DNA of 64,000 nt, from contig JAICHV010000002.1 of NCBI GenBank assembly GCA_025924715.1, forward strand, positions 62,001 through 126,000, read 5' to 3'. This stretch comes from Alphaproteobacteria bacterium. GTDB lineage: Bacteria > Pseudomonadota > Alphaproteobacteria > Micropepsales > Micropepsaceae. The first letter of the stretch is position 1. Each line of letters opens with the position of its first letter. Below the pieces are notes generated by a model. The model was not told the DNA's origin. It searched no databases and saw only the letters and a program-made list of their open reading frames with translations. Positions 39,312-54,697 of this stretch are shown one piece after another. The translations under genes and the position numbers were made by a program.

Positions 39312-42300
39312 TTAACTCGCAACGGCCTCGGCGTGCGCAAACAAGTTGAGGCGGCGAAGGTCGTCAATCTTCGTCCAGGCACCTTCGAGAAGGTCGGCGC
39401 CATGTACGACGATGGCAAGACATTCCGCACGGCTTATCGCGACGTTGAACCGATTGGGATTGAAGAGGAACTCAGTTCCTCGCGGCGCATCTGATCCCTT
39501 CGACGTTGTCATGGACACAATAACCACCGGGGCCTCCTGCCCTTGAAACTTATCAACGGTGCCGATTTGTACGCCTGGTGGCAGCACCTCCTTGAGGAGG
39601 TTCACTTGCAGATTGTAAGGAGCCACAACCAGAATTTCGCCCGGCGTCAGGGGCGTGACGCTCTCGCCGCGAACCAAGGATTGGCCGCACAGAGAGTCAA
39701 TCAGCCGGGCAATCGCTTCCGCCTCCGGGCGGCTGGATTGGGTGCAGCCATCATGGATGACAGGAACAAACGAGATGCCCGCTTCCCGAATGGCTGCCTC
39801 GGCGCCTGGACGGACTTGCAAGCGCCGCTGGGCCGTTGAGGCATGTGCGGTGAGACGACCATCATAGATCGCGTCGGAGATAAAACTGCACAGGAGAGGA
39901 TGGAGGCGCCGCGTTTCATTCAAGAGAATGCCGCGATCCTCCGGCACCGTCGCTTTGTCCTCCAGCAAGTATTCCAAGCTGGACAAACCTGTTTCACCGG
40001 GATGAACGCCCTGGACCGGTTGCGGGAGTTGCATTTGATCACCGACCAGTACGATGTTGGTCGCCGCACCCGCCATGGCCACAAGATTGCCCAAGGAAAC
40101 CTGACCGGCCTCATCCACGAAAAGATAGTCGTAAGCCTGCCGCTGATCCTCGCGGCAGAAATGAAAGACGGTACCGCCCACAAGACGGTGGGCCGGATTG
40201 GCGTCCTTCGAATCGAAGATCGTTGCGATGTTCGCGCCGTTATATTCTGTCTCCGGGGCGTCCTTGTTGCCCTTCTTGGCGCCGTGAAAGTGAAAGCCAG
40301 CCACTTCGGCGTGTTTCTCCACTTCACTGAGCAGTTTATTGATCGCCTTGTGCGAATTGGATGAAACTCCGACACGCTTGCCGGCCCGCAGAAGCGTCAC
40401 GATCGCATGAGCAGCGGTATAGGTCTTGCCCGTGCCAGGCGGCCCCTGAATAATCAGGTAACTGCCGTCAAGGTCCATCGCGGCCCGCGCTACAGCGTCT
40501 GTCAACGGTTCGCCGGGACCGCGCAACGGCTGTCCCGGTTGACGGCCTTTCAGACGGGGAACTTGGCGCATGAGGATGTCCACGAGCGCCTGGTCAGCGG
40601 GCAACGGCCCGCGCGCGAAGCGCTCTGCAAAAGCCAGTACCGCGTCGGGGACACCTTGAAGATTGATCGGTGCCGGCACCAAGCTGAATTTGTCCGGCAG
40701 GGCGGCGGCTTTGGCGCCACGGCGCAGAACCACACGGCCATCCTCTGCCGAAATTTCCACGATGGTCCCGCAAGTACCCAAGGTTTCGGCGATGCGTGGT
40801 GTGTCACCAACCTTCAACTTGGTATCCTGCGGCGGAAACATATAGGTGGTATCGAAGGATCGTTTGACTGCCACCGGGGCAATGTTGGGGTTTCGCGTTA
40901 TGCCGCCGAGGCTTTCAGCATCATCAATCAGTTCGTCGTCTGACCAAGCCTGTCTTTCGAACAGGGCCCACCAGCCAGGCTTTTGCGAGCGCTGGTGAAA
41001 CCATAACAGTTCCGCCACAAGGTCTCGAACGCGATCATCACCGTTGGCGCAGGCGCGCACTTCTGCGGCAAGCGCCTGCTTGCGGGCTTCACGCTCCGCC
41101 CGTTCGGCTGAAACCTCTGCCTTGTCGCCGCCGTCATCGACAATATCCAGACTGACGCCGGCTGGCCGCAATCCTTCCAACCAGTCCCGCAGATGCGCCG
41201 TAGAAACACAGTCATCCTGATTGTAAGCGCAGATGGAGTCCAAAATCGCTTGGTCTTGGGTCACGCTCCAGCGCTCATATTCGACGATACTGGCCGAAGC
41301 GGTCTTTACCTCTCCAGTGCGCTTACGCCAGTACAGGGCTTCCAAATCCTTGATCGAATAGCTCTCCGTTGAAGCCCGAAGACCCTGGACAACAACGCGG
41401 TACAGATCGACGAACCGGCGTTCCCGCAATAGCTGGTCGAGTTCTGCTTCCATGGTCGCGTAGCGCATGGCGAGCTTCTTCAGCGCTGTGGGCTCGTAGG
41501 CCGCATAGTGGTAGATGTGGGCGCCGGGATGCTGCGTGACCTGGTCAACGAACAGGCGGACAACGCGCTCAAACGCCGCCTTTTCCTGGACAGGATCATG
41601 CGCCCAGATGGGTGTGAATATGGGCTCCGCCGCAGCGCCGATGCGGCCATAAATGCCGAACAGGTATTCCAGCCCTACCCCCGCGAGAGGATCACCTTCC
41701 ATGTCGAAAAACAGGTCGCCCTTGTCGCGCGCCGGAAGCATACCAAAACCGCGCCCCGTAGCCGGCGGTAGCAACTCGAAACCAGGCTTGCCGCTATTGC
41801 GCGCGTTGAGTTGTAAACGCGCCTGATCGGACAATTTGACGACCGTATCCGGCCCCATGCCATCGACTTTGGTGCCGGCGGGAAGCGCCGCAAGCTGCGC
41901 CAGGGTATGCACGCCCGCTGCGGCCAGCTTTACCACCTGGGCGCCGCTAAGGCCGGCTACGAAGAACGGGCTGTCAGATTGGCGCCATTCGTCTTCGCAG
42001 CGCCCTTTGTAGTCACATTGCTCGCAGGCTGCACAAGGTACAGCCTTCGTGGACCGTCTGTCGTCCGCCACAAACCGCTCGAAGGAGCGCATGAGACGCT
42101 TGAGAATATACCGCGTGCGGCGGAGGTCAAAACTTTCCGGTGCACCTGCAGCAACATGAATCACGCCTTGCCCGACGGGAACACCATAAAGGGCTTCCAT
42201 CAGCTCAGCATAGAGTCCCAACTGCAACAGATATTCGCCCTTCGCGCGGCGTGCGAGCTTGGCATCTTCTGGCGCAAATACGTCACCGACTTCCGAGCGC

Positions 42301-42617
42301 ACCAAAAAATCTGGATAACCGAGCCAAGCATCTTTTGACAAAGCGCCCTGGTATATGAGCTTTGCGCCCGCTGCTATCGCATTTCGGGTTGCCTCTACGC
42401 GATCTGCAAGAGAGCCTTTAGCCGGAATGCTTGCGGCAGCGCCATACTGCGCTTCCAGCCGCGCCAAAACTACCGCCTCATGCTCAAACCCTTTTTCGCG
42501 GAAAAGTTTTAGCGTTTCATCGGCTGCGTCTTGCGGCTTCACACCAGCAAGCCAGAGAGCCGCGGCATGGGAACACCCAAGGAATGAATTGAGACGAGAC
42601 GCCGATAGCGGATGCAT
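39312..42617 (-). CDS. TM0106-type RecB-like nuclease / DEDD-like exonuclease / SF1 helicase
   Basis: A 1,101-residue multidomain enzyme. The N-terminal domain is a RecB/Cas4-like nuclease: Cys15 plus Cys195/198/201/207 for an Fe-S cluster, acidic residues at YPDFL and EDAKL, and QLGLYAE. A middle RNase H/DnaQ-like domain shows LFFDMEGDP (~301) and YNQDDCVSTAHL (~467). The C-terminal half is a UPF1-like SF1 helicase with GPPGTGKT (~725) and an FVDEAGQ box. It probably processes nucleic acid 5' or 3' ends. Its place beside CBASS suggests anti-phage or repair activity. The ATG at 42617 is the family start. Confidence 0.9.
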   Translation of the reverse strand: MHPLSASRLNSFLGCSHAAALWLAGVKPQDAADETLKLFREKGFEHEAVVLARLEAQYGAAASIPAKGSLADRVEATRNAIAAGAKLIYQGALSKDAWLGYPDFLVRSEVGDVFAPEDAKLARRAKGEYLLQLGLYAELMEALYGVPVGQGVIHVAAGAPESFDLRRTRYILKRLMRSFERFVADDRRSTKAVPCAACEQCDYKGRCEDEWRQSDSPFFVAGLSGAQVVKLAAAGVHTLAQLAALPAGTKVDGMGPDTVVKLSDQARLQLNARNSGKPGFELLPPATGRGFGMLPARDKGDLFFDMEGDPLAGVGLEYLFGIYGRIGAAAEPIFTPIWAHDPVQEKAAFERVVRLFVDQVTQHPGAHIYHYAAYEPTALKKLAMRYATMEAELDQLLRERRFVDLYRVVVQGLRASTESYSIKDLEALYWRKRTGEVKTASASIVEYERWSVTQDQAILDSICAYNQDDCVSTAHLRDWLEGLRPAGVSLDIVDDGGDKAEVSAERAEREARKQALAAEVRACANGDDRVRDLVAELLWFHQRSQKPGWWALFERQAWSDDELIDDAESLGGITRNPNIAPVAVKRSFDTTYMFPPQDTKLKVGDTPRIAETLGTCGTIVEISAEDGRVVLRRGAKAAALPDKFSLVPAPINLQGVPDAVLAFAERFARGPLPADQALVDILMRQVPRLKGRQPGQPLRGPGEPLTDAVARAAMDLDGSYLIIQGPPGTGKTYTAAHAIVTLLRAGKRVGVSSNSHKAINKLLSEVEKHAEVAGFHFHGAKKGNKDAPETEYNGANIATIFDSKDANPAHRLVGGTVFHFCREDQRQAYDYLFVDEAGQVSLGNLVAMAGAATNIVLVGDQMQLPQPVQGVHPGETGLSSLEYLLEDKATVPEDRGILLNETRRLHPLLCSFISDAIYDGRLTAHASTAQRRLQVRPGAEAAIREAGISFVPVIHDGCTQSSRPEAEAIARLIDSLCGQSLVRGESVTPLTPGEILVVAPYNLQVNLLKEVLPPGVQIGTVDKFQGQEAPVVIVSMTTSKGSDAPRGTEFLFNPNRFNVAISRAECLAIVVHGADLLEGAWTKIDDLRRLNLFAHAEAVAS

Positions 42618-42707
42618 AACTGACCCCCAATATTCCAATGCTATCACATGGTAAGCCCGGCGCAGAGGGCGCCCCGCCTACATTCTATTCGCCGTAGCAG
42701 ATCGGCT

Positions 42708-43730
42708 CTAACTGCATGGCGTAAACTTCAGCGCTGGCTCCCCAAAGAATTGCCGCTGAATCTCCCGTCCGCTGGCCTCGACCAAGGATCGGGCGAGGTT
42801 GGGCAATTCGGCAGCCGCGCGGCAATGATCGTCCAGCCGGATTGCGCGGGTCGTCTCTGGGGCGTCGAGGCGCATGACCTGATCTTTCCCGATAAGGAGA
42901 AAGGCCTGCCCCAAGGCATTCTTCGATTGTGCCCGCATCGCGGCGGTGATGGCATTGTACCAATGGAACATACCGCCCTTAGCCATTGCGGCGCTGACCT
43001 GGAATGTGGTTTCGCCGCAACCGAGGCTTAGGATTTTGATTTGCCGGCGATCAAGGTCAAAGCAGGATAGCGCATCAACAACGGCATTCATCACCGGGTT
43101 GTTGGCCCACAGGCCTCCGTCGATCATCACATAACCCTCGTTTGGGAGAGCTTCAAAAAAGGTGGGCGCCGCGGCCGTCGCCAAACCCACCGTCACCATG
43201 CGTTCGGAGCGATCCAACTTGTAATCGGGATGATGCGGAGTCTTATATATCCACGGCTCGCCGAACCGCCCCTCAAAAGCAGGGATGCAGAGTCGGGTCT
43301 TGGCGTCGCCAAGCACTGCATCGCCAAAGATGCGTTCCAGCTCCGACTGCAAAGGTTCACGTTCATAGAGATAGCGATATCCGCGGACAAAAAGCCGGTA
43401 CAACCGGCCAAGTTTCGAGGCGGGTGGAAATATCTTGCCGCCCTCCTTCACATAGATATCCCGAATGGCCGATGCCGGCATGCCATGCGCTAACGCCAGC
43501 GCGATAATGCCGCCCGTTGAGGTTCCAGCGATCAGATCAAAATAGGGCGCGACCGATGCACCGCCCAGGTAGCGCCGCTCCACCTCAGCTAAAATCGACG
43601 CGGGCAAGATTCCGCAAATACCGCCGCCGTCGAGGGCCAGGATGCGGAACGGGCGATCCTTCGGCCAAGGTTGAGGTACGCGAAGCCCCTGTATCGTGCC
43701 ATCGGATCGACGGGCCGGTTCGCTGCTCAT
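42708..43730 (-). CDS. capV: CBASS patatin-like phospholipase effector (CapV-like)
   Basis: A 340-residue patatin-like lipase. The Ser/Asp dyad is Ser71 in GTSTGG and Asp204 in DGGLWANNP; the oxyanion loop is DGGGICG at 34-40. In CBASS, CapV-type lipases are switched on by the cyclic nucleotide made by the partner CD-NTase and destroy the inner membrane. The start overlaps the stop of the E2-like gene (TAATG), marking one operon. The position usually held by Arg in DGGGxRG is Cys39 here. Confidence 0.9.
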   Translation of the reverse strand: MSSEPARRSDGTIQGLRVPQPWPKDRPFRILALDGGGICGILPASILAEVERRYLGGASVAPYFDLIAGTSTGGIIALALAHGMPASAIRDIYVKEGGKIFPPASKLGRLYRLFVRGYRYLYEREPLQSELERIFGDAVLGDAKTRLCIPAFEGRFGEPWIYKTPHHPDYKLDRSERMVTVGLATAAAPTFFEALPNEGYVMIDGGLWANNPVMNAVVDALSCFDLDRRQIKILSLGCGETTFQVSAAMAKGGMFHWYNAITAAMRAQSKNALGQAFLLIGKDQVMRLDAPETTRAIRLDDHCRAAAELPNLARSLVEASGREIQRQFFGEPALKFTPCS

Positions 43731-44191
43731 TAGGCAGCACTTCCGGCATGGCGTCCGCCGCCATACCAACGGCCGGTTGCCTGCCAGCATTCGTAACAGG
43801 CCAGCCAGTCCGCAGTCCAAGGCACCGTCGTTCTGGCCAAAAAGTCGCGATGAGACCATTCATCCTTTTCCAGGTCGAACAGGCAAAGCGGCGACATGGG
43901 CAAATCGTCGAAGTCAAAAAACACATGCGGCAAGGGTGCCTCTTCCAGTGCGTCCAGGTTCGGCACCAATGCCGGCGACAGAACGCGGACAACCGGAAAC
44001 CGGCGAAACATCGGGCTATCGCCCTCCCCCGGCAGGCCGAAGGCAATCTGGACAATGTGCGCGCGCTCGATCCCCACCAATGGACCTTCCCAGGCCGCGA
44101 AGTCGGCGGTCTGCCTTACGATTTGGAGTTGTGGCCATAGGCGATGCATGACGTGAGCCTGCTGCCCGATGGACTTTAGCTGCCCGGCCAT
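43730..44191 (-). CDS. CBASS stand-alone E2-like protein (short type II)
   Basis: A 153-residue protein matching the E2-only component of short type II CBASS. The most telling stretch is HVFFDFDDLPMSPLCLFD, with a candidate catalytic Cys103, followed by EWSHRDFLARTTVPWTADWL and ATGRWYGGG. E2-like proteins in CBASS join the CD-NTase C terminus to a target and prime its activity. It overlaps the CD-NTase gene by 16 bases and the lipase by one. There is no E1 or JAB gene nearby, which fits the short subtype. Confidence 0.82.
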   Translation of the reverse strand: MAGQLKSIGQQAHVMHRLWPQLQIVRQTADFAAWEGPLVGIERAHIVQIAFGLPGEGDSPMFRRFPVVRVLSPALVPNLDALEEAPLPHVFFDFDDLPMSPLCLFDLEKDEWSHRDFLARTTVPWTADWLACYECWQATGRWYGGGRHAGSAA

Positions 44192-45438
44192 TTCGACCCA
44201 TAAAAGGTATGGCCGCGGGGCTGAGCCAGCGCCGGAGAGGAAATCACGCCCGCCGCAGCCGCGGCCGGGATGACCCGCCCGGACGGCGCGATGCCGCGAA
44301 CCCCGGTGTTGATCGAGCGGCCAAGCCGAGAGGCGTAGTCCTGCACGACCGAGTCAGCCGGGCCCTCTCCGAACATCGCGACCAGAAGATCCCGCTTCTG
44401 GGCCAAGGTATAGCTTTCCGACATAAGCCCGGCGAGCTGCTTGCGGAAGGTGCGCAGGTCTTCAATGTAGATGCGCTGCGCCGCGCGGTTTTCCGGCCAA
44501 CGGTCCGTGAACCGCTCCCCCTTGCACTTCGGGTTCTCAACATCGATCAGTTGACCGCGGGCCTCAGCGGCTTCCAGCGAGGCCAGCATGGCGCCGGAGA
44601 GAACATCAAGAGCCCCGGAAATGCTGGTGCCGGGCATGGACGTTTGGGCCGCGAAATTCGCCATCATCACAGACGGCGGCATGCGCTGGTCCTTGCGGGG
44701 CGCGTAGCGGATATTGCGGTTACGCTTCAAAAGCTGGAGCGCCACCACAGCGGTGGACTTTCCGCCCTCTTCGGTCGAGTGGGCCGGCACTTCTTTCACG
44801 GCGGCGTCCTTGGCCAGCAAGGCCGCGTCAAATGTCATGGCGCGTGTGCCATAAGCCTTCGCAAAATCGATATCGGCCGGAGTGCGGGCGTTGAACCATT
44901 CGCAGAACGCCCAGCAATTCATCACCAGCCGCTTGTGCTGGGCGACCGGCTCCTCGGGCTTGGCGTGGAAGATGTGACTGCGGCGCGGATCAAGCGCGTC
45001 AATCAGGGACGACGGCGTGATATCCAGATGCATGCCGTCTTCATAGTAGACGGTGACGCAACGTGTCTGGCGTTCCACCATCCCGTGGTAGCGCGACCCC
45101 TTGGGACCGTTGATCGCTTCAAACAGAAGGTCGAGCACCCCAGCCGGGCTCAGCGAGGGCGACACCAGGAGTTCGGCGATGATGTCGATATCGTAGCCAT
45201 CACCGCGCTTGCGCGACTGGATCGTGGCGCGGATCGCCATGGAGCCCTGAGGATAGAAGTAGGCGACGCGGTCAAAAAGGGGGCTATCGGGCCGCTCAAT
45301 ATGATTGCGGACCGCGCCGTAGCGGTCCACCGCCAGCTTGTGCTTGCTGGGCGGCAGTTCGATGCGGATAGCGGTGTCGGCGAGCAGGATTTCGCCGACC
45401 GGCGCCGTGCTGCCCAGAAGGGCTTGATGGATGGACAT
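44176..45438 (-). CDS. CBASS CD-NTase (cGAS/DncV-like nucleotidyltransferase)
   Basis: A 420-residue CD-NTase. The nucleotidyltransferase core is present: GS at 65-66 (FYPQGSMAIRATI), the metal-binding pair D83 and D85 (GDGYDIDIIAEL) and the third acid D139 (MHLDITPSSLID). A helical C-terminal half follows, ending in a flexible tail HTFYGSKWPGS. On phage infection such enzymes make cyclic di- or trinucleotides that activate the effector. The tail is the expected site for E2-dependent linkage. The product nucleotide cannot be read from sequence. Confidence 0.92.
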   Translation of the reverse strand: MSIHQALLGSTAPVGEILLADTAIRIELPPSKHKLAVDRYGAVRNHIERPDSPLFDRVAYFYPQGSMAIRATIQSRKRGDGYDIDIIAELLVSPSLSPAGVLDLLFEAINGPKGSRYHGMVERQTRCVTVYYEDGMHLDITPSSLIDALDPRRSHIFHAKPEEPVAQHKRLVMNCWAFCEWFNARTPADIDFAKAYGTRAMTFDAALLAKDAAVKEVPAHSTEEGGKSTAVVALQLLKRNRNIRYAPRKDQRMPPSVMMANFAAQTSMPGTSISGALDVLSGAMLASLEAAEARGQLIDVENPKCKGERFTDRWPENRAAQRIYIEDLRTFRKQLAGLMSESYTLAQKRDLLVAMFGEGPADSVVQDYASRLGRSINTGVRGIAPSGRVIPAAAAAGVISSPALAQPRGHTFYGSKWPGS

Positions 45439-45486
45439 GGTCTGAACCTCGAAATGGCTTGGTCCCTTGAAGGACCGCCCTTCGCG

Positions 45487-45515
45487 TTGACCGGAGAATC
45501 TGATACGACTAGTTT
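45487..45515 (+). promoter_or_regulatory. Candidate promoter of the CapW-type regulator
   Basis: TTGACC (45487-45492) and TAGTTT (45510-45515) are separated by 17 bases. The predicted transcription start falls at the beginning of the palindrome 45522-45540, so the same operator could repress the regulator's own gene. Confidence 0.5.
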
Positions 45516-45516
45516 C

Positions 45517-45545
45517 AATATGGGTATCGTAACTATACCCGTCAA
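45517..45545 (-). promoter_or_regulatory. CBASS promoter with operator palindrome in its spacer
   Basis: On the minus strand TTGACG (45540-45545) and CATATT (45517-45522) have a 17-base spacer. The inverted repeat GGGTAT-N7-ATACCC (45522-45540) lies between and touches both boxes. Nonamer GTAACTATA occurs at 45529-45537 and again at 45546-45554, giving a second half-site at the capW start. A repressor bound here would block RNA polymerase directly. Confidence 0.7.
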
Positions 45546-45553
45546 GTAACTAT

Positions 45554-46447
45554 ATGGATTATGCACACATGGAAATCAAGGCTGACGACCGAAGGCGTTG
45601 GGGACCGGAACAACGCCTTGAATTTATTGAATTTCGTCTGTTTTGGGACGGCGGTGTGCGGCGGGGCGACCTGATTTCCAGGTTCAACGTCTCAACCCCG
45701 CAGGCCTCCACCGACCTGGCGAACTATCGCGAACTGGCGCCTGAGAACATGGAGTACGACGCGACCCAGAAGCGCTACGTCGCCACCGCGGCGTTTGCGC
45801 CCCGCTTTCTCAAGCCCAACGCTGACCGATACCTCGTCCAGCTCAAAGCCATCGCGGACGGCGTCATACGACTGGATGAGACGCCCATCATCGCGCCACC
45901 GAACGTGGATGCGCTACCGATCCCCCATCGCCGCGTCGAGCCGCGAATATTGAAAGCGCTGTTGGAGGCGATCCGTAATCAGCGCGGTCTAACGGTTCAC
46001 TATCACTCTATGAACCCGAAAAGACCTGACGCTCAATGGCGCAGTATTACACCGCACGCATTCGCCAATGACGGACTTCGCTGGCACATCCGCGCCTTTT
46101 GTCATGAGGAACATCGGTTCAAAGATTTTATCCTTTCGCGCTTCCTGGACACTGGTCAGCAAGAACCCGCGGCGGCGAAAGCGGAGGCGGACACCGAATG
46201 GTTTTCGTTCTTCGACGTTGTTCTTGCGCCGAACCCCAAACTGTCCGACGGCCAACGGCGCATGATTGCGTTCGATTACGATATGCCGGATGGACAACTG
46301 ACGCTGCCGGTCCGTTGTGCCCTGCTCTACTACTTCAACAAGCGGCTCCGCCTGGACGTAGCCCCGACCGTGGACGACCCCAAGGAAACCCCCGTTGTCG
46401 TTGTAAACAAGAAGGAGTTTGACCAGGCCGTGAAGCGGCTCGGGTGA
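45554..46447 (+). CDS. capW: CapW/BrxR-type WYL transcriptional regulator of CBASS
   Basis: A 297-residue regulator. A winged helix (RRWGPEQRLEFIEFRLFWDG, GVRRGDLISRFNVSTPQAST) is followed by a WYL domain (LTVHYHSMNPKRPDAQWRSI, then LRWHIRAFCHEEHRFKDFIL) and a C-terminal WCX-like part. This is the CapW/BrxR architecture: a repressor divergent from CBASS or BREX genes that is thought to release its operator during infection or DNA damage. The start is ATG 45554; ATG 45569 is an alternative. Neither has a clear ribosome binding site. Confidence 0.9.
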   Translation: MDYAHMEIKADDRRRWGPEQRLEFIEFRLFWDGGVRRGDLISRFNVSTPQASTDLANYRELAPENMEYDATQKRYVATAAFAPRFLKPNADRYLVQLKAIADGVIRLDETPIIAPPNVDALPIPHRRVEPRILKALLEAIRNQRGLTVHYHSMNPKRPDAQWRSITPHAFANDGLRWHIRAFCHEEHRFKDFILSRFLDTGQQEPAAAKAEADTEWFSFFDVVLAPNPKLSDGQRRMIAFDYDMPDGQLTLPVRCALLYYFNKRLRLDVAPTVDDPKETPVVVVNKKEFDQAVKRLG

Positions 46448-46653: not shown

Positions 46654-49600
46654 GTGTCTAACCCCTTTTTCGACCACCCTATCCTGAACTCGCCATATGA
46701 GATTCCTGCACGGCATTGGGAGCTGGACGAACACGGCCAGCCCACCCAAAAGACGCTGGATAGCCGTCGTCGCGCGGAATTTCTCACGCCGATCCCCAAG
46801 CCAAAAAAGCGCAAACGGTCGGCCGCACAGGTCGAGATTGTCTTTGATGAAGGCAAAGGCCTTTCCACCAAAGACCAGGAATATGACCAGACCTCAATCA
46901 TCAATGAGGTTCGCGGTTATGTGAACACCTGGCGCGCGCTGCCCTCTCCTGCCCAGTGGCAGGTCACGCCTGAAACTGGCCGCCTTTTGCAACACTGGCG
47001 TCATCACCAGTTCAGCAACATTAGGCCATTCTTTTGCCAAGTCGAAGCTGTCGAAACCGCCATCTGGTTGACGGAGGTGGCGCCAAATATCGCGCATGGG
47101 AAGCGGATTTTGGAACTGCTTTCATCTGCCAACAAGGACGCCAACCCCGAATTGATGCGGCTAGCTCTCAAGCTGGCGACTGGCGCTGGTAAGACAACAG
47201 TTATGGCTATGCTCATAGCTTGGCAAACGATCAATGCGGTTCGGCGTCCGGGCAGCAAACAATTTACGAGAGGTTTTCTGGTTTGCGCTCCAGGTCTGAC
47301 CATTAAGGACCGTTTGCGCGTCCTCCAGCCCAACGATCCTGACAGTTATTACGCCAGCCGAGAACTCGTCCCAAACGACATGCTCGACGATATCAATCGG
47401 GCAAAGATCGTGGTGACGAACTACCACGCGTTCAAACTGCGCGAAGTGATCGACATATCGAAAGGTGGCCGCCAATTGTTGCAAGGCCGTGGTGGCGCCG
47501 AGCTTAATACGCGCGAGACAGAAGGCCAGATGATCCAGCGCGTGATGCCGGATCTGATGGGCATGAAAAACATTCTCGTCATCAATGACGAGGCGCATCA
47601 TTGTTACCGCGCCAAACCAAAAGATGCTGACGACGAAGAGTTGAAGGGCGACGATAAGAAGGAGGCGGAAAAAAATAATGAGGCTGCTCGCCTTTGGATT
47701 TCTGGATTGGAGGCCGTCAACCGCAAATTGGGCGTTGCGCGCGTGATGGACCTATCCGCAACGCCATTCTTCCTGCAGGGATCGGGGTACGCAGAAGGCA
47801 CATTGTTCCCATGGACCATGAGTGACTTTTCTCTCATGGATGCTATCGAGTGCGGCATTGTGAAACTGCCGCGCGTTCCCGTTGCTGAGAACATTCCTGG
47901 CGATGAGCTGCCCGTTTTCCGGGACCTTTGGGAAAATATCCGTGGTGACATGCCCAAGAAGGGCCGCGGGCAAGGCGATGAGCTTGATCCGCTCAAATTG
48001 CCGACGCGCCTGCAGACAGCACTCCAGGCGCTCTATGGGCACTACGAAAAGACCTTCCAACTTTGGGAAGCCAAAAACATCAAGGTCCCGCCGTGCTTCA
48101 TCATCGTTTGTCAGAACACCGCGATATCGAAACTCGTCTATGACTTCATCTCGGGATTTCATCGCAAGAATGGTGACGGTACAACCACGCTTGAAAATGG
48201 TCGTTTGGCCCTCTTCCGCAACTTTGATGAAACCACAGGCAATCCGCTACCCCGCCCCAATACCCTTCTGATCGATAGCGAACAACTAGAGGCCGGCGAT
48301 GCGCTTGATGACAGTTTCCGCGGTATGGCGGCCGATGAGATCGAACGCTTTCGCCGCGAGATCGTAGAGCGTACAAATGACGCGCGCGCCGGCGATAACA
48401 TTACGGATCAAGAGCTGCTCCGGGAGGTTATGAATACGGTCGGCAAGGCCGGACAACTCGGTGGTAACATTCGCTGCGTTGTGTCGGTCTCAATGCTGAC
48501 CGAGGGCTGGGATGCCAATACGGTGACGCACGTTCTGGGCGTCCGCGCATTCGGCACGCAATTGCTTTGCGAACAAGTAATTGGCCGCGCCCTGCGCCGC
48601 CAGTCTTATCAGCTCAACGAGGAAGGGCTGTTTAACGTCGAATATGCTGATGTGTTTGGCATTCCCTTCGATTTCACGGCGAAGCCCGTTATCGCGCCGC
48701 CGCAGCCGCCGCGGGAGACGGTGCAGGTGAAGGCCGTGCGCCCAGATCGCGACGCTCTAGAAATTCGCTTCCCGCGTGTCGAAGGCTATCGGGTCGAATT
48801 GCCTGAAGAGCGCCTTACGGCAGATTTCAATGATGACTCCATTTTGGAGTTAAGCCCCGATCTGGTGGGACCATCTATCACCCGCAACTCCGGCATTATC
48901 GGCGAAGGCGTCGATATGAGTTTGGAGCATTTGGGCGATATGCGCCCTTCATCGCTGGTGTTTCACCTGACACAGCGTCTTCTCTACACAAAATGGCGTG
49001 ATCCAGGGGAAGAGCCCAAGCTCCACCTTTTTGGACAATTGAAGCGCATCACCAAGGAATGGCTTGATACCTGCCTCGTTTGCAAGGGCGAAACCTATCC
49101 TGCGCTGCTTATGTACCAAGGCCTTGCTGATATGGCCTGCAACCGGATTACGGCCGCGATCACAAGACAGTTTCTTGGCGAGCGACCGATCAAAGCTCTG
49201 CTTGATCCCTACAACCCAACCGGTTCCACTTCCCATGTTCGGTTCAACACGTCACGTGAAGACCGCTGGGATACGAGTGGCCCGCCACCAAAAAATCAGG
49301 TCAATTGGGTCATTCTGGATAGCGATTGGGAGGGCGAATTTTGCCGGGTCGCCGAATCCCACCCGCAGGTGATCGCCTATACCAAGAACCACAACCTCGG
49401 CCTGGAGGTCCCGTACCGCTACGGCTCTGAAATGCGGAAATACATCCCTGACTTCATTGTGAAGGTAGATGACGGCCACGGCCCAGACAATCCGCTGTAC
49501 CTGATCGTTGAGATCAAGGGCTATAGGCGCGAAGACGCCAAAGAAAAGAAGTCCACCATGGATACTTATTGGGTACCTGGAGTGAACCACATTGGATCGT

Positions 49601-49731
49601 ATGGCCGGTGGGCTTTCGCTGAGTTCGCCGAAGTGTATCAGATCGAATCCGACTTCAAGTCAAAGATCGCCGGAAAATTCGACCAGATGATTACGAACGC
49701 AGCCGCTGAGCGCGCAAACGAGTACAAATAG
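46654..49731 (+). CDS. Type III-like restriction helicase with C-terminal PD-(D/E)XK nuclease
   Basis: A 1,025-residue SF2 helicase-nuclease of the BPTD_3080 restriction family. It has Walker A LATGAGKTTVMAML (~177), DEAH-box VINDEAHHCYR (~311), the helicase C-terminal part with SVSMLTEGWDANTVTHVLG, QVIGRALRRQSY, and a nuclease end with YIPDFIVKV and LIVEIKGYR (~930-955). The start is a GTG at 46654 with a G-rich site upstream. The methyltransferase gene follows after two bases. In a type III-like system this subunit translocates and cuts unmodified DNA. Confidence 0.88.
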   Translation: MSNPFFDHPILNSPYEIPARHWELDEHGQPTQKTLDSRRRAEFLTPIPKPKKRKRSAAQVEIVFDEGKGLSTKDQEYDQTSIINEVRGYVNTWRALPSPAQWQVTPETGRLLQHWRHHQFSNIRPFFCQVEAVETAIWLTEVAPNIAHGKRILELLSSANKDANPELMRLALKLATGAGKTTVMAMLIAWQTINAVRRPGSKQFTRGFLVCAPGLTIKDRLRVLQPNDPDSYYASRELVPNDMLDDINRAKIVVTNYHAFKLREVIDISKGGRQLLQGRGGAELNTRETEGQMIQRVMPDLMGMKNILVINDEAHHCYRAKPKDADDEELKGDDKKEAEKNNEAARLWISGLEAVNRKLGVARVMDLSATPFFLQGSGYAEGTLFPWTMSDFSLMDAIECGIVKLPRVPVAENIPGDELPVFRDLWENIRGDMPKKGRGQGDELDPLKLPTRLQTALQALYGHYEKTFQLWEAKNIKVPPCFIIVCQNTAISKLVYDFISGFHRKNGDGTTTLENGRLALFRNFDETTGNPLPRPNTLLIDSEQLEAGDALDDSFRGMAADEIERFRREIVERTNDARAGDNITDQELLREVMNTVGKAGQLGGNIRCVVSVSMLTEGWDANTVTHVLGVRAFGTQLLCEQVIGRALRRQSYQLNEEGLFNVEYADVFGIPFDFTAKPVIAPPQPPRETVQVKAVRPDRDALEIRFPRVEGYRVELPEERLTADFNDDSILELSPDLVGPSITRNSGIIGEGVDMSLEHLGDMRPSSLVFHLTQRLLYTKWRDPGEEPKLHLFGQLKRITKEWLDTCLVCKGETYPALLMYQGLADMACNRITAAITRQFLGERPIKALLDPYNPTGSTSHVRFNTSREDRWDTSGPPPKNQVNWVILDSDWEGEFCRVAESHPQVIAYTKNHNLGLEVPYRYGSEMRKYIPDFIVKVDDGHGPDNPLYLIVEIKGYRREDAKEKKSTMDTYWVPGVNHIGSYGRWAFAEFAEVYQIESDFKSKIAGKFDQMITNAAAERANEYK

Positions 49732-49733
49732 CT

Positions 49734-52532
49734 ATGGCCAAGAAACCCGTCCCCACAAAATCAGTTGAAACACTGAAGCACGATGAAGCGAAACGGAAAA
49801 ATATTCCGACCGCTGAATTGCAGTCCGTTTTCGATAAAGAGCAGCAGGAATCGAAAAAGGTTCGCTACCCCCGCAACACCGATTTGGACCCGCAGCTAGT
49901 ATGGCGCGGAAAGGACGAGCAAGACTGGAGCGATCTGATTGTTCAGGCACCTCCGCTCTATATTCAGGAAAAGGTTCACGCAAAAGCGCTTATTGACGAT
50001 CTACTTCGCGAAACGAAAGAGCGCGCTCACAATTCCGGCGAAGCCAGCGCTGACCTGTTTTCTGACTTCAACGGCATCCCAAAGGGAGTCGATAAAACAG
50101 ACTTTTACAAGCACGACCAAAATTGGTCGAACCGGATGATTCTGGGCGACTCCTTGCAGGTGATGGCTAGCTTGGCCGAACGAGAAGGCCTGCGCGGTAA
50201 GGTGCAATGCATCTATTTCGATCCGCCCTATGGAATTAAATTCAATAGTAATTTTCAATGGTCAACCACGAGTCGTGATGTCAAAGACGGCAATGTGACA
50301 CACATTACCCGCGAGCCCGAACAGGTTAAGGCTTTTCGTGATACGTGGCGGGACGGCATTCATAGTTATCTGACCTACTTACGAGACCGCTTGACGGTGG
50401 GGCGCGACCTGCTGAATGAGACTGGGTCTATCTTTGTCCAAATTGGTCAGGATAATTGCCATTTAATCCGATCACTGCTCGATGAAGTTTTCGGCGCTGA
50501 AAATTTCATTTCGCAAATCGTGTTTTCAAAAACCGCGAGCGCGACATCCGAGTATCTGTCGGGCACATACGACGTGTTGGTGTTCTATGCTAAATCTCGT
50601 CCACACCTTAAGTATCGGCAGCCCTTAACGCTTAAGCAGGTCGGCGGCGCGGGTGGCGGCGCATATAAGCGAGTGCGGCTGCCAGATCTGTCCGAACGTG
50701 CGATCACCCCAGAAGAGCTTTCTGGACAGCAGGCTCTCCCTGCGGGCGCTCGGCTTTTTCGAATCGACAATCTTACTAGTCAGAGCGTCGGCCGCGATAA
50801 AGGCGAAGGTGCCGCCTCTTGGTTTCCTGTAGAATTTGAGGGGCAAACACTTCGCCCCTCAGAAAAGGTTCGCTGGAAGACCAACGAACTGGGTATGAAG
50901 CGGCTCAAAATCGCCTCACGCCTAAGTGCTACCGACAAGGGGCTATATTACGTCCGATATTTTCAAGACTTCGGCGCCTTTCAGGAAGACAACATTTGGG
51001 CAGATACTGGAATTGCCGGTTTCGCGTCTGAAAAGCGGTATGTCGTCGAAACTTCGGAGAAAGTTGTCCAGCGCTGCTTATTGATGGCTACTGATCCAGG
51101 GGATCTTGTGCTCGATCCAACGTGCGGGTCGGGCACCACTGCCATGATGGCGGAACATTGGGGAAGGCGCTGGATCACTATCGATACCTCCCGTGTTGCG
51201 TTAGCCTTGGCACGGGCCAGGATCATGGCGGGCCGGTATCCATATTTCCTACTGACAGACTCTCGTGAGGGTCAGCTTAAGGAAGCCGAGCTGACGCGAG
51301 TGCCGCCCAGTTCCCAGCCAGTTCGCAATGATATTCGACATGGCTTTGTTTACGACCGCGTGCCTCACATTATGCTTAGTTCCATTGTCCGCAATTCTGA
51401 ACTCGATGAAATCGATGCGTCCTGGCAGAAAAAACTCGATGCGACGCTCGTAGCGCTGAATGGGGCCCTTCAAAAGTCGTGGCAGCCTTGGCAAGTGCCT
51501 CGCTCGCAAGATGATAAATGGGGCCCGGATGCACGTAAACTCCATGCGCAATGGTGGTCACAAACAATAGAGCGACAGGCGGAGGTCGATAAATCGATTT
51601 CGGCAAAAGCCGAATTTGAATACCTGTTTGATAGACCTTATGACGACCGAAAGAAGGTCCGTGTCGCAGGGCCGTTTACTGTTGAGAGCTTAAGTCCTCA
51701 CAGGATGATTGCCGTTGGCGCTGACGATGAACTTATTGACGAGCGCACAGATGACGTAGCGGCAAACCAGTCTTTCCCACAAATGGTACTGGAGAACTTG
51801 AGAATCTCAGGTGTCCAACAAGCACATAAGGATGACCGGATTAATTTCGTCTCACTGGTGCCTTGGCCTGGCGAATTGGTCTGCGCTGAAGGCAGATATT
51901 TGGAGGGCGACATAGAAAGGCGGGCTGCTATTTTCATAGGGCCTGAATTTGGGACCGTCCAACGGCCGGACCTGGTGGCAGCCGCACGTGAGGCTGGCGA
52001 CTCTGCTTTCGACGTCCTCATTACGTGCGCGTTCAACTACGAAGCTCACACAACTGAGTTCTCGAAATTAGGCAGGATACCTGTCTTGAAGGCGCGAATG
52101 AATGCCGACCTTCATATGGCCGAAGACCTCAAAAACACTGGTAAGGGAAATCTATTTGTCATTTTTGGCGAACCCGATATTGATCTTATCCGCGAAACAG
52201 ACGGCAGGCTGCGCGTCAAAGTAAACGGAGTCGATGTTTTCAAACCGCAAACTGGCGAAGTCGTTAGCGACGGGGCTGATGGGATAGCGTGTTGGCTTCT
52301 TGACACTGATTACAATGAGGAGAGCTTTTTTGTACGGCACGCGTATTTCCTAGGCGCCAGTGATCCCTACAATGCACTCAAAACAACGCTCAGAGCTGAA
52401 ATAGATGCCGACGCTTGGGCATCTCTGAACAGCGATCTTTCCAGGCCGTTTAGTCCGCCTTCCAAGGGACGCGTTGCAGTTAAAGTGATCAATCACCTGG
52501 GCGATGAAGTGATGAAGGTGTTTAAGGTCTAA
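49734..52532 (+). CDS. Site-specific DNA methyltransferase (type III Mod-like)
   Basis: A 932-residue beta-class N6-adenine or N4-cytosine methyltransferase. The catalytic motif DPPYGIKF is at ~162 and the SAM-binding motif LDPTCGSGTTAMMAEHWGRR is at ~460, in the beta-class order. It is far longer than usual Mod subunits (~600-650), with ~400 extra C-terminal residues I do not recognise. It is coupled to the upstream helicase-nuclease gene by a two-base gap. It protects host DNA and supplies sequence recognition. Confidence 0.88.
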   Translation: MAKKPVPTKSVETLKHDEAKRKNIPTAELQSVFDKEQQESKKVRYPRNTDLDPQLVWRGKDEQDWSDLIVQAPPLYIQEKVHAKALIDDLLRETKERAHNSGEASADLFSDFNGIPKGVDKTDFYKHDQNWSNRMILGDSLQVMASLAEREGLRGKVQCIYFDPPYGIKFNSNFQWSTTSRDVKDGNVTHITREPEQVKAFRDTWRDGIHSYLTYLRDRLTVGRDLLNETGSIFVQIGQDNCHLIRSLLDEVFGAENFISQIVFSKTASATSEYLSGTYDVLVFYAKSRPHLKYRQPLTLKQVGGAGGGAYKRVRLPDLSERAITPEELSGQQALPAGARLFRIDNLTSQSVGRDKGEGAASWFPVEFEGQTLRPSEKVRWKTNELGMKRLKIASRLSATDKGLYYVRYFQDFGAFQEDNIWADTGIAGFASEKRYVVETSEKVVQRCLLMATDPGDLVLDPTCGSGTTAMMAEHWGRRWITIDTSRVALALARARIMAGRYPYFLLTDSREGQLKEAELTRVPPSSQPVRNDIRHGFVYDRVPHIMLSSIVRNSELDEIDASWQKKLDATLVALNGALQKSWQPWQVPRSQDDKWGPDARKLHAQWWSQTIERQAEVDKSISAKAEFEYLFDRPYDDRKKVRVAGPFTVESLSPHRMIAVGADDELIDERTDDVAANQSFPQMVLENLRISGVQQAHKDDRINFVSLVPWPGELVCAEGRYLEGDIERRAAIFIGPEFGTVQRPDLVAAAREAGDSAFDVLITCAFNYEAHTTEFSKLGRIPVLKARMNADLHMAEDLKNTGKGNLFVIFGEPDIDLIRETDGRLRVKVNGVDVFKPQTGEVVSDGADGIACWLLDTDYNEESFFVRHAYFLGASDPYNALKTTLRAEIDADAWASLNSDLSRPFSPPSKGRVAVKVINHLGDEVMKVFKV

Positions 52533-52600
52533 CTTCAGTAAGACACGCTCTCTGTGACTTGTGCTTCTTAACGCATCCGTCGGTTTGAAAGGCTGTTCTT

Positions 52601-54697
52601 TTGGACTTTTTGATCGCAGACACCTTTTCAGACAGTCTAGCGCGCCTAACAGGCGACGAACAGAAGGCCGTGAAGACAACGGCTTTCGACCTTCAAATGA
52701 ATCCCGCCAATCCGGGAATGCATTTCCATAAGCTGGAAAAATCCAAGGACAAGAGCTTTTGGTCTGTCAGAGTTAACTCCGATATCCGGTTGATTGTGCA
52801 CCGGGGCCCAGGAAGCCTGCTACTCTGTTATGTCGATCATCACGACAAAGCCTACGACTGGGCTGAACGCCGAAAAATCGAGACTCACCCCAAGACGGGC
52901 GCAGCACAGCTCGTAGAAGTTCGAGAAACCGTTAAAGAGATAATCATCCCGGTCTATATCGAAGCCGCCGCAGAGATGGCCCCGACCCCTGCGATTCTTT
53001 CAAGGACAAAGATATTCGCGAGCGTTTCGGACGAAGATTTGCTCGATTTCGGCGTACCTATCGAATGGCTGGCTGACGTAAAGGCCGCAACCGAAGACTC
53101 GTTGTTCGCGTTGGCGGACCATTTGCCGGCCGAAGCATCCGAAGCTTTGCTTGAGCTGGCTACTGGCGGCAGGCCAAGGAAGGCCGAGCAGACAATTCCT
53201 GCATCAAACCCATTTACGCATCCCGATGCACAGCGCCGGTTTCGCGTGCTTACGAACATCGAGGAGCTGGAAAGAGCACTCGATTACCCTTGGGATAAAT
53301 GGACAATCTATTTACATCCTGAACAGCGACAGATTGTTGAGAGACAATACTCTGGACCTGCGCGGGTCTCTGGCTCGGCCGGGACAGGAAAGACTATCGT
53401 CGCCCTTCATCGGGCTGCATATCTTGCGCGCACCCATACCGAGAGTCGCGTCCTCCTAACGACCTTTTCCGATTCTCTGGCCCATGCTCTCAAAATTGGT
53501 TTGCGCCGATTGCTGGCAAATGAGCCCCGGCTCGGTGAGCGTATCGACGTACATTCTCTCAACGCCGTGGCATTGCGATTGTACAAATCGCTTATCGGGC
53601 CATGTACTATCGCTACGCCCGAACAAATTAGGGCAGGTCTGAAGGACGCTGCACAAGCGGGTGAAGAAACGAAATTCTCAGGCCACTTCCTATGGGTAGA
53701 ATGGGAACAGGTTGTCGATGCGTGGCAATTGCGATCATGGGAGCAGTACCGCGATGTGGTGCGCCTTGGCCGCAAGACTAAATTGCCCGAAGCGCAGAGG
53801 CGAGTTCTGTGGTCGATTTTTGAGCGCGCCCGCGGGGGATTAGCCTCGAAGCAACTACTCACCTATGCTGAATTGTTTACAAAACTGGCCGACTTTATTC
53901 AGGATTCCAGCAAGGTCATCTTCGATTACGTAATTGTTGACGAGGCTCAAGACCTGAGCGTCGCCCACCTCCGCTTTCTAGCTGCCCTCGGTGCAGCGCA
54001 TCCTGACTCGCTATTTTTTGCAGGCGACCTCGGGCAGCGAATTTTTCAGCAACCCTTCTCTTGGAAGGCGTTGGGGGTGGACGTGCGTGGGCGAGCGCGC
54101 ACCCTGCGCGTCAACTATAGAACTTCTCATCAGATTCGGATGCAGGCTGATCGCTTACTCGGAACAACAGTTACCGATGTGGATGGTAATGACGAAAAGC
54201 GCAGTGACACTGTTTCGGTATTTAACGGCCCTGCCCCGACTATTGCGGCATTTGATACTGCCGACTCAGAAATCAAGGCGGTGGCTGAGTGGCTGTCAGA
54301 ACGGATGGTCGATGGTGTAAATGCTCACGAAATTGGCGTTATTGTGAGGTCGCAAGCCCAGATTGAGCGAGCGCGACTTGCGGTTGAGCGGTCCAAGACA
54401 CCTTTCCGCGTTATCGACGATCACGCGGAGACGGAACATGGCGCGGTATCCATTTGCACCATGCATTTGGCTAAGGGCTTGGAGTTCCGTTCCGTCGTTG
54501 TAATGGCGTGTAACGATGATGTGATCCCCCTGCAGGCACGAATCGAACAGGTCGGCGATGACGCGGACCTAAAGGAAGTTTATGATACTGAGCGGCATCT
54601 GCTGTACGTCGCTTGTACCCGCGCTCGGGACCACCTCTTAGTAACGGGGGTTACCGCCACCTCCGAATATTTGGATGATCTGCGGGGAGGCCAATAG
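52601..54697 (+). CDS. UvrD/Rep-type helicase with N-terminal RelE-like domain
   Basis: A 698-residue protein. Residues 1-95 look like a RelE/ParE toxin fold: LARLTGDEQKAVKTTAFDLQ, then FHKLEKSKDKSFWSVRVNSD and IRLIVHRGPGSLLLCYVDHH. After a linker comes an SF1A helicase: Walker A VSGSAGTGKTIVALH (~257), YVIVDEAQDLS (~444) and a C-terminal CTMHLAKGLEFRSVVVMACN. The start is a TTG at 52601 behind AAAGG. It lies 68 bases after the methyltransferase gene on the same strand, making a three-gene run. It ends the accessory region. Confidence 0.85.
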   Translation: MDFLIADTFSDSLARLTGDEQKAVKTTAFDLQMNPANPGMHFHKLEKSKDKSFWSVRVNSDIRLIVHRGPGSLLLCYVDHHDKAYDWAERRKIETHPKTGAAQLVEVRETVKEIIIPVYIEAAAEMAPTPAILSRTKIFASVSDEDLLDFGVPIEWLADVKAATEDSLFALADHLPAEASEALLELATGGRPRKAEQTIPASNPFTHPDAQRRFRVLTNIEELERALDYPWDKWTIYLHPEQRQIVERQYSGPARVSGSAGTGKTIVALHRAAYLARTHTESRVLLTTFSDSLAHALKIGLRRLLANEPRLGERIDVHSLNAVALRLYKSLIGPCTIATPEQIRAGLKDAAQAGEETKFSGHFLWVEWEQVVDAWQLRSWEQYRDVVRLGRKTKLPEAQRRVLWSIFERARGGLASKQLLTYAELFTKLADFIQDSSKVIFDYVIVDEAQDLSVAHLRFLAALGAAHPDSLFFAGDLGQRIFQQPFSWKALGVDVRGRARTLRVNYRTSHQIRMQADRLLGTTVTDVDGNDEKRSDTVSVFNGPAPTIAAFDTADSEIKAVAEWLSERMVDGVNAHEIGVIVRSQAQIERARLAVERSKTPFRVIDDHAETEHGAVSICTMHLAKGLEFRSVVVMACNDDVIPLQARIEQVGDDADLKEVYDTERHLLYVACTRARDHLLVTGVTATSEYLDDLRGGQ

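Follow-up and report, generated by a model that had tools for sequence, protein, structure and literature searches.

We analysed a stretch of 64,000 nucleotides from an alphaproteobacterium of the family Micropepsaceae (assembly GCA_025924715.1, contig JAICHV010000002.1, positions 62,001 to 126,000; termed "the window", whose coordinates are used throughout), which harbours an operon of three genes coding for a type III-like restriction endonuclease (Res), a DNA methyltransferase (Mod) and a RelE-like domain fused to a UvrD-type helicase (RelE-UvrD). The restriction-modification (R-M) family to which Res and Mod belong, BPTD_3080, is known, and so is the RelE-UvrD architecture, which is that of ArmD from the ARMADA Type II defence system and thus not unique to this locus. 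The pairing of the two is robust across relatives, and no description of the RelE-helicase as a part of BPTD_3080 R-M was found in the literature searched, supplements lying outside its scope.

46654-49731, plus strand: Res, BPTD_3080-family type III-like restriction endonuclease, superfamily 2 (SF2) helicase plus PD-ExK nuclease, 1025 amino acids (aa) (NF046055, ResIII)
49734-52532, plus strand: Mod, beta-class type III-like DNA methyltransferase, 932 aa (PF01555, PDLC03632, type III Mod structures)
52601-54697, plus strand: RelE-UvrD (ArmD-like) helicase, 698 aa, TTG start (family matches, ArmD homology, tree)

The three open reading frames (ORFs) are intact and co-directional, with gaps of 2 bp between Res and Mod and 68 bp between Mod and RelE-UvrD, in agreement with the original prediction, which was made from the sequence alone and placed three closely spaced genes on one strand at these positions.

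Conservation of the three-gene unit

The original prediction regarded the three genes as one composite system, a view that a helicase found mostly without its partners would contradict. We inspected the 80 best of 503 relatives of the helicase on GTDB contigs (60-71% identity, many phyla) and dropped seven loci with less than 1.6 kb of upstream sequence (L101, L103, L113, L120, L126, L179 and L180). A same-strand Mod gene lies upstream of the helicase in 71 of the 73 assessable loci, being contained within 70 of them and situated just past the edge of L128; L165 is devoid of Mod, and L170 retains only remnants of Res and Mod. The gene order Res-Mod-helicase is found in all 48 loci that hold all three genes. 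The helicase is therefore not a gene found mostly on its own, and the composite unit is borne out.

The reverse count, starting from Res, was made in two genome samples, with up to three helicase candidates scored per genome. Among 385 genomes of the class, presumably Alphaproteobacteria, 22 contain Res, 17 the helicase and 12 both (Fisher p 2e-13). In the 22 genomes with Res over the cut-off, the helicase is on the same contig in 12, and five have no close helicase relative (G056, G318, G357, G365 and G272; Mod looks broken in G357 and G272); the other five were left out, either at a contig end (G262, G366) or as divergent (G015, G261, G130). The phylum sample (398 genomes, presumably Pseudomonadota) yielded 27 genomes with Res, where the helicase is found on the same contig in 17, carrying a stop in G543, and is absent in one (G498). 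Nine were left out: G405, whose helicase is on another contig; G552, G491, G526 and G556, where the contig ends or a gene is partial; G480 and G445, which are damaged; and G618 and G496, of the divergent subfamily. Counting G000, G334 and G159, which are common to both samples, once, and excluding the second Res copy of G065 (C76), the helicase is present in 26 of 32 distinct assessable genomes with a canonical Res-Mod pair.

Where the helicase is missing, no remnant of it stood out in the locus (best E-value 2.3), and UvrD-like matches in these genomes reach about 60 bits or less, versus at least 490 bits for true relatives. The association persists after rearrangement: G260 and G162 carry Mod-Res together with a convergently oriented helicase, and G190 retains Mod and the helicase without Res. 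At L081:8165-14590, where Mod and the helicase are together without Res, a Schlafen AlbA_2/HATPase gene is located beside Mod on the opposite strand. Across 38 loci including the window, protein distances correlate most strongly for Mod and helicase (0.61), followed by Res and helicase (0.50) and Res and Mod (0.42), and for each pair none of 999 permutations was as high.

Res and Mod

Residues 6-1004 of Res match the BPTD_3080 family model NF046055 at 1372 bits (cut-off 800). Res also matches ResIII (PF04851, 1.2e-8) and, weakly, RE_endonuc (PF19778, 21.5 bits, below the cut-off of 23.4), and a phmmer search of the PDB with Res gave no match. By its motifs Res follows the type III domain plan of an SF2 helicase joined to a PD-ExK nuclease. 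Among 35 Res proteins, that of the window included, identity at the Walker A, DEAH, SATP and IGRALRR motifs is 91-100%.

47182-47196, plus strand: Walker A GAGKT of Res, aa 177-181 (97-100% identical in 35 Res proteins)
49444-49521, plus strand: PD...EIK nuclease motif of Res, aa 931-956 (P932, D933, E953 and K955 invariant in 35 Res proteins)
50220-50231, plus strand: DPPY motif of Mod, aa 163-166 (invariant in 26 Mods)
50496-51038, plus strand: variable region of Mod, aa 255-435, likely target recognition domain (column identity, 26 Mods)
51114-51140, plus strand: DPTCGSGTT motif of Mod, aa 461-469, after DPPY
51234-52529, plus strand: conserved C-terminal extension of Mod, aa 501-932 (mean column identity 0.78-0.88; inside PDLC03632)

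Mod matches N6_N4_Mtase (PF01555, 2e-29), and its core aligns with the solved type III Mods 6k0w (residues 131-465, 1e-22) and EcoP15I 4zcf (residues 120-466, 1e-20). The motifs appear in beta-class order, i.e., DPPY, a variable region and an FxGxG-type motif. Mean column identity amounts to 0.45 at residues 255-435, the likely target recognition domain, and to 0.90-0.95 in the catalytic core.

The original prediction had called Mod oversize, owing to a long stretch of additional C-terminal residues. The C-terminal part, of about 430 residues, is real; yet it is the normal form of the family, since the PADLOC type III model PDLC03632 (983 positions) covers Mod residues 48-932 at 1430 bits, and the conservation of residues 501-932 is close to that of the catalytic core. 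Mods of helicase-less loci have the same long C-terminus, and hence the helicase does not account for the extension. Given model coverage, conservation and presence in helicase-less loci, we rejected the idea of a fusion or novelty. We rather take the extension for a docking or structural platform; the structure model of Mod, with a predicted local distance difference test score (pLDDT) of 52, is too poor to show its nature.

The RelE-UvrD protein

52601-52876, plus strand: RelE/HigB/YafQ-like N-terminal domain, aa 1-92 (PF05015, YafQ fold match, conserved residues)
53306-54694, plus strand: superfamily 1A (SF1A; UvrD/Rep/PcrA-type) helicase part, aa 236-698 (PF00580, PF13361, fold match, motifs)

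The third protein, whose TTG start at 52601 fits the start residue of its homologues, is indeed the fusion of a RelE/ParE-like domain and an SF1 helicase that had been predicted. The UvrD parts (PF00580, PF13361) are matched at 1e-17 to 1e-18, and the SF1 helicase motifs are kept. In an AlphaFold2 model built from 34 sequences (mean pLDDT 68), the motor resembles PcrA and Rep (Z 17.9), compared to Z 13.5-13.7 for HelD over the whole motor.

The RelE-like domain, modelled with a pLDDT of 71-85 in blocks, is weak by sequence. PF05015 scores 23.8 bits in the whole protein, under the cut-off of 27; a scan of the isolated domain brings the score just over it, to 27.8 bits. Of 31 such domains, two of them from Thermaceae ArmD, 26 match PF05015 at E <= 0.01. 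The modelled residues 1-86 superimpose on YafQ over 85 residues (Z 12, root-mean-square deviation 2.0). A comparison of the domain profile with YafQ by hhalign was not significant, and PDB sequence searches with the domain led nowhere. R63, H81, D82 and Y85 are identical in all 50 rows of our alignment, ArmD included; H81 is presumably the equivalent of YafQ H87, judging from the range of the fold alignment and the known YafQ residues. H43 (40/41) and D61 (41/41) characterize the R-M-associated helicase clade; both are retained in two Thermaceae ArmD rows and gone from the other seven of nine ARMADA-side rows.

Besides the RelE-like domain, no nuclease family was matched in the 698 residues at E <= 0.001. 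No antitoxin gene was recognized next to RelE-UvrD: only 68 bp separate it from Mod, and in the 220 bp downstream all ORFs are on the minus strand and none exceeds 96 aa, the longest of them matching no Pfam family.

Relation to ArmD and ARMADA Type II

In a tblastn search against the window, ArmD residues 10-685 align with the third protein at 31% identity. ArmB and ArmC (from E. coli and Thermus) as well as C-terminal fragments of ArmA (whole ArmA was not tried) gave no tblastn match in the window, to which the component search was confined within this genome. The window thereby contains the RelE-fused GajB-like helicase of ARMADA Type II and no recognizable ArmA-ArmB-ArmC operon.

With the helicase as query, tblastn against 72,556 plasmids returned 47 records at E <= 1e-40, and 11 among the matches listed (40 of the 47 records) show at least 47% identity. 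In six of the seven examined records at this level (H1, H4, H5, H6, H8 and H10; H2, H3, H7 and H12 stand outside the count), BPTD_3080 Res and/or Mod are located beside the helicase, the exception being Qipengyuania. At 30-36% identity, seven of eight examined records (E. coli, Thermus, Pseudanabaena, Allomeiothermus, Microvirga, Aulosira and Tsukamurella) have an ArmD-like gene preceded by a helicase, a methyltransferase and a large helicase; the seven operons show ArmB/ArmC similarity to the E. coli operon and were identified as ARMADA Type II. The eighth, from Streptomyces, has no annotation, and its stretch gave no ArmB/ArmC match.

A quick tree of 50 rows separates nine ARMADA-side rows, to which Streptomyces had been assigned beforehand, from the other 41, which include Qipengyuania, by a branch with support 98. 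Under a midpoint root, used for drawing only and with long branches flagged, two Thermaceae ArmD adjoin the R-M clade; ARMADA may therefore be the older setting of the RelE-helicase.

The Qipengyuania plasmid locus (L100:12001-19757) holds a RelE-helicase of the R-M clade with no Res or Mod in the stretch and a DUF4011 protein directly after it, possibly a third context for ArmD-like helicases. A TM0106 RecB-like gene is located two genes upstream of the ArmD-like gene.

According to the main text of a recent preprint, deletion of ArmD or the K266A substitution abolishes ARMADA defence, D454N lowers it, and ARMADA with ArmD acts directly and non-abortively, infected cells staying intact (Bell et al. 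2025, PMC12458937). In E. coli ArmD, residue 266 is the lysine of Walker A and residue 454 the aspartate of DEAQ, in agreement with the mutated positions. The terms "type III restriction" and "BPTD" have no match in that main text.

Proposed role of the helicase

We hold with moderate confidence that the operon encodes a type III-like R-M system, to which an ArmD-type motor belongs as a dedicated auxiliary third component acting directly on invading DNA. The variable middle region of Mod would determine the site at which the enzyme marks host DNA, and Res, with Mod, would move along and cut unmarked DNA, by analogy with type III enzymes. The ArmD-like SF1A motor would act with or after the Res-Mod complex on the invading DNA, most likely loading on ends or single strands exposed by restriction or phage replication and unwinding them, which would stop repair and replication of the invader. 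The RelE-like domain would not be a free toxin; acting in cis, it would serve as an RNase or as a grip on nucleic acid. Overall, the role of the helicase would be auxiliary, and direct rather than suicidal; the direct role is favoured, since the homologue ArmD and its Walker A are needed for defence while cells stay intact. We also count for this reading that the 68-bp gap leaves no room for an antitoxin gene and that none was recognized downstream.

Several observations weigh against it. The helicase is absent from six of the 32 assessable canonical genomes and from all five genomes of the divergent Mod-Res subfamily, which implies that the R-M system can exist without it and that the helicase is auxiliary, not strictly essential. 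The distance correlations could be explained by joint operon inheritance alone, the Qipengyuania member of the clade resides in a different context, the conserved RelE residues fit an active toxin as well, and the structure models of helicase and Mod are only moderate (see above).

The strongest rival, which goes back to the original prediction and which we consider unlikely, is a fail-safe, in which the RelE-like domain would be an mRNA interferase kept latent until the R-M complex is blocked or the motor encounters phage DNA; its release would then arrest growth. The RelE/HigB-like fold with its conserved residues (the four invariant ones as well as H43 and D61), the failure to recognize an antitoxin gene, and likely suicide effectors (SIR2, PIN, Schlafen) among the genes inserted in related operons are all compatible with such a switch. 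Yet the back-up or trigger of abortive infection suggested in the original prediction is not supported. In the only experiment on a homologue that we found, ARMADA with ArmD is reported to be non-abortive, an inexact comparison given that seven of nine ARMADA-side rows are without H43 and D61, and the YafQ profile comparison is not significant. An improbable alternative places the target in transcription: the motor would act HelD-like on RNA polymerase or transcripts, and the RelE-like domain would cut nascent phage mRNA. Known RelE-type domains are RNases, and the third protein matches, among others, HelD models and the C-terminal domain of HelD; however, HelD scores below PcrA and Rep over the whole motor, and the similarity lies in the common SF1 core.

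Just as improbable is a host-side role, where the helicase would remove complexes that have stalled or mend the cuts that Res makes in the host's own DNA. A UvrD-type motor whose presence is optional would suit this task, but ArmD, the closest of the other families found, is a defence protein (repair helicases were not in the tree), and the UvrD-like matches in helicase-less genomes are far weaker than true relatives. Finally, defence islands gather unrelated systems, and the neighbouring cyclic-oligonucleotide-based antiphage signalling system (CBASS) looks like such a case; that the helicase is likewise a mere neighbour without a functional tie is nevertheless very improbable in view of the nearly constant Mod and the constant gene order. 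Moreover, the adjacent WYL and CBASS genes were matched in only one and none of the 80 loci, respectively, but the sequence upstream of Res exceeds 1 kb in only 28 of them.

Two variable slots in related operons

49732-49733, plus strand: slot 1, Res-Mod junction, empty in the window (gap of at least 500 bp in 25/48 relatives)
52533-52600, plus strand: slot 2, Mod-helicase junction, empty in the window (gap of at least 500 bp in 56/70 relatives)

In relatives, these junctions are frequently occupied, and the gaps reach 9.9 kb. A stricter count, for which the facing gene ends had to be matched, gives gaps of at least 500 bp in 24/45 cases for slot 1 and 54/68 for slot 2. The inserted ORFs of 100 loci form 117 clusters, some of them probably spurious, and 18 of 20 chosen representatives match a Pfam family. 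The families include SIR2, subtilase, AAA ATPases, GmrSD_N, PIN and Schlafen AlbA_2, as well as YhcG nuclease, DUF4062, HerA and SNF2; DUF262 is found in relatives, too. Defence-type slot genes were seen in L046, L107, L127, L144, L149, L151, L155, L158, L177 and others.

The literature searched contained no description of this slot pattern for BPTD_3080 R-M. Auxiliary and back-up genes inside operons are described for bacteriophage exclusion (BREX) systems (PMC12839542). We tentatively put forward, as a possibility short of our preferred reading, that BPTD_3080 R-M is a widespread platform, where a frame of Res, Mod and an ArmD-type RelE-helicase houses exchangeable effectors in two slots, ArmD serves as a common processing part of unrelated methyltransferase defences, and the core complex may fire the effectors. 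The slot junctions of relatives are a possible hunting ground for new effectors.

Genomic setting

42708-43859, minus strand: patatin-like CBASS phospholipase, CBASS pair
44176-45438, minus strand: CD-NTase (SMODS), CBASS pair

The CBASS pair (42708-45438, minus strand) directly upstream of the R-M operon confirms the predicted defence-island setting. An ORF at 44209-45549 (plus strand), antisense to the CD-NTase ORF and without a Pfam match, was rejected. Beside CBASS, positions 39312-42647 encode a protein of 1111 aa with RNase_H_2 and an SF1 helicase, perhaps TM0106-like. A WYL-domain protein (45554-46447) is located between CBASS and the R-M operon and could regulate either one. Neither the WYL gene nor the CBASS genes were retained as members of the unit; this is a weak test, given the few loci in which the region upstream of Res is visible. 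Positions 12311-37170 harbour parts of an integrated conjugative element, i.e., a TrbE-like protein, a TraG coupling protein, a DUF3363 protein, ParB, ArdC antirestriction and a RovC-like regulator; an RND efflux pump lies among these parts. Downstream of the R-M operon, trpG-, trpD-, moaC- and moeA-like genes are found.

Comparison with known systems

Our results indicate that the RelE-helicase also exists outside ARMADA, as a portable module that two unrelated methyltransferase-based defences have in common, and they suggest that unrelated bacterial defences share this part. The pairing makes testable what a RelE-fused SF1 motor adds to restriction. It also draws attention to an R-M operon that is widespread, keeps its ends and varies in its defence cargo.

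Res and Mod of the window belong to the BPTD_3080 family (NF046055; PADLOC MTase_III, PDLC03632) over nearly their whole length; those entries name single enzymes only. As in type III R-M, the mod and res genes are adjacent, here in the order res-mod. Type III systems recognize two inversely oriented sites, methylate one strand and cut 25-27 bp away. EcoP15I, which consists of two genes only, is similar in its Mod core and Res domain plan, yet its Mod comprises 644 aa in 4zcf versus 932 aa in the window.

Among the PADLOC models, those for GajB of Gabija give the third protein scores of up to 92 bits, and a NERD+UvrD model scores best (104 bits). In contrast to Gabija, no GajA gene is located beside the window helicase, and GajB is not known to contain a RelE domain. 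ArmD of ARMADA Type II is closest in design, a RelE-like domain being fused to a GajB/UvrD-like helicase after a methyltransferase operon. Its partners, however, are ArmA, ArmB (PglX-like) and ArmC (YprA-like) instead of Res and Mod, and ArmD and the R-M-clade helicase form separate groups in the quick tree.

Finally, UvrD-Cas4 fusions have been described next to Res and Mod of type III, in some cases together with WYL genes (PMC5704561). There, too, an SF1 helicase accompanies type III Res and Mod; the difference resides in the fused domain, a Cas4-like nuclease there and a RelE-like N-terminus in the window helicase, in which no Cas4-like nuclease was found. UvrD-Cas4 thus represents a precedent for an SF1 helicase that accompanies a type III core.

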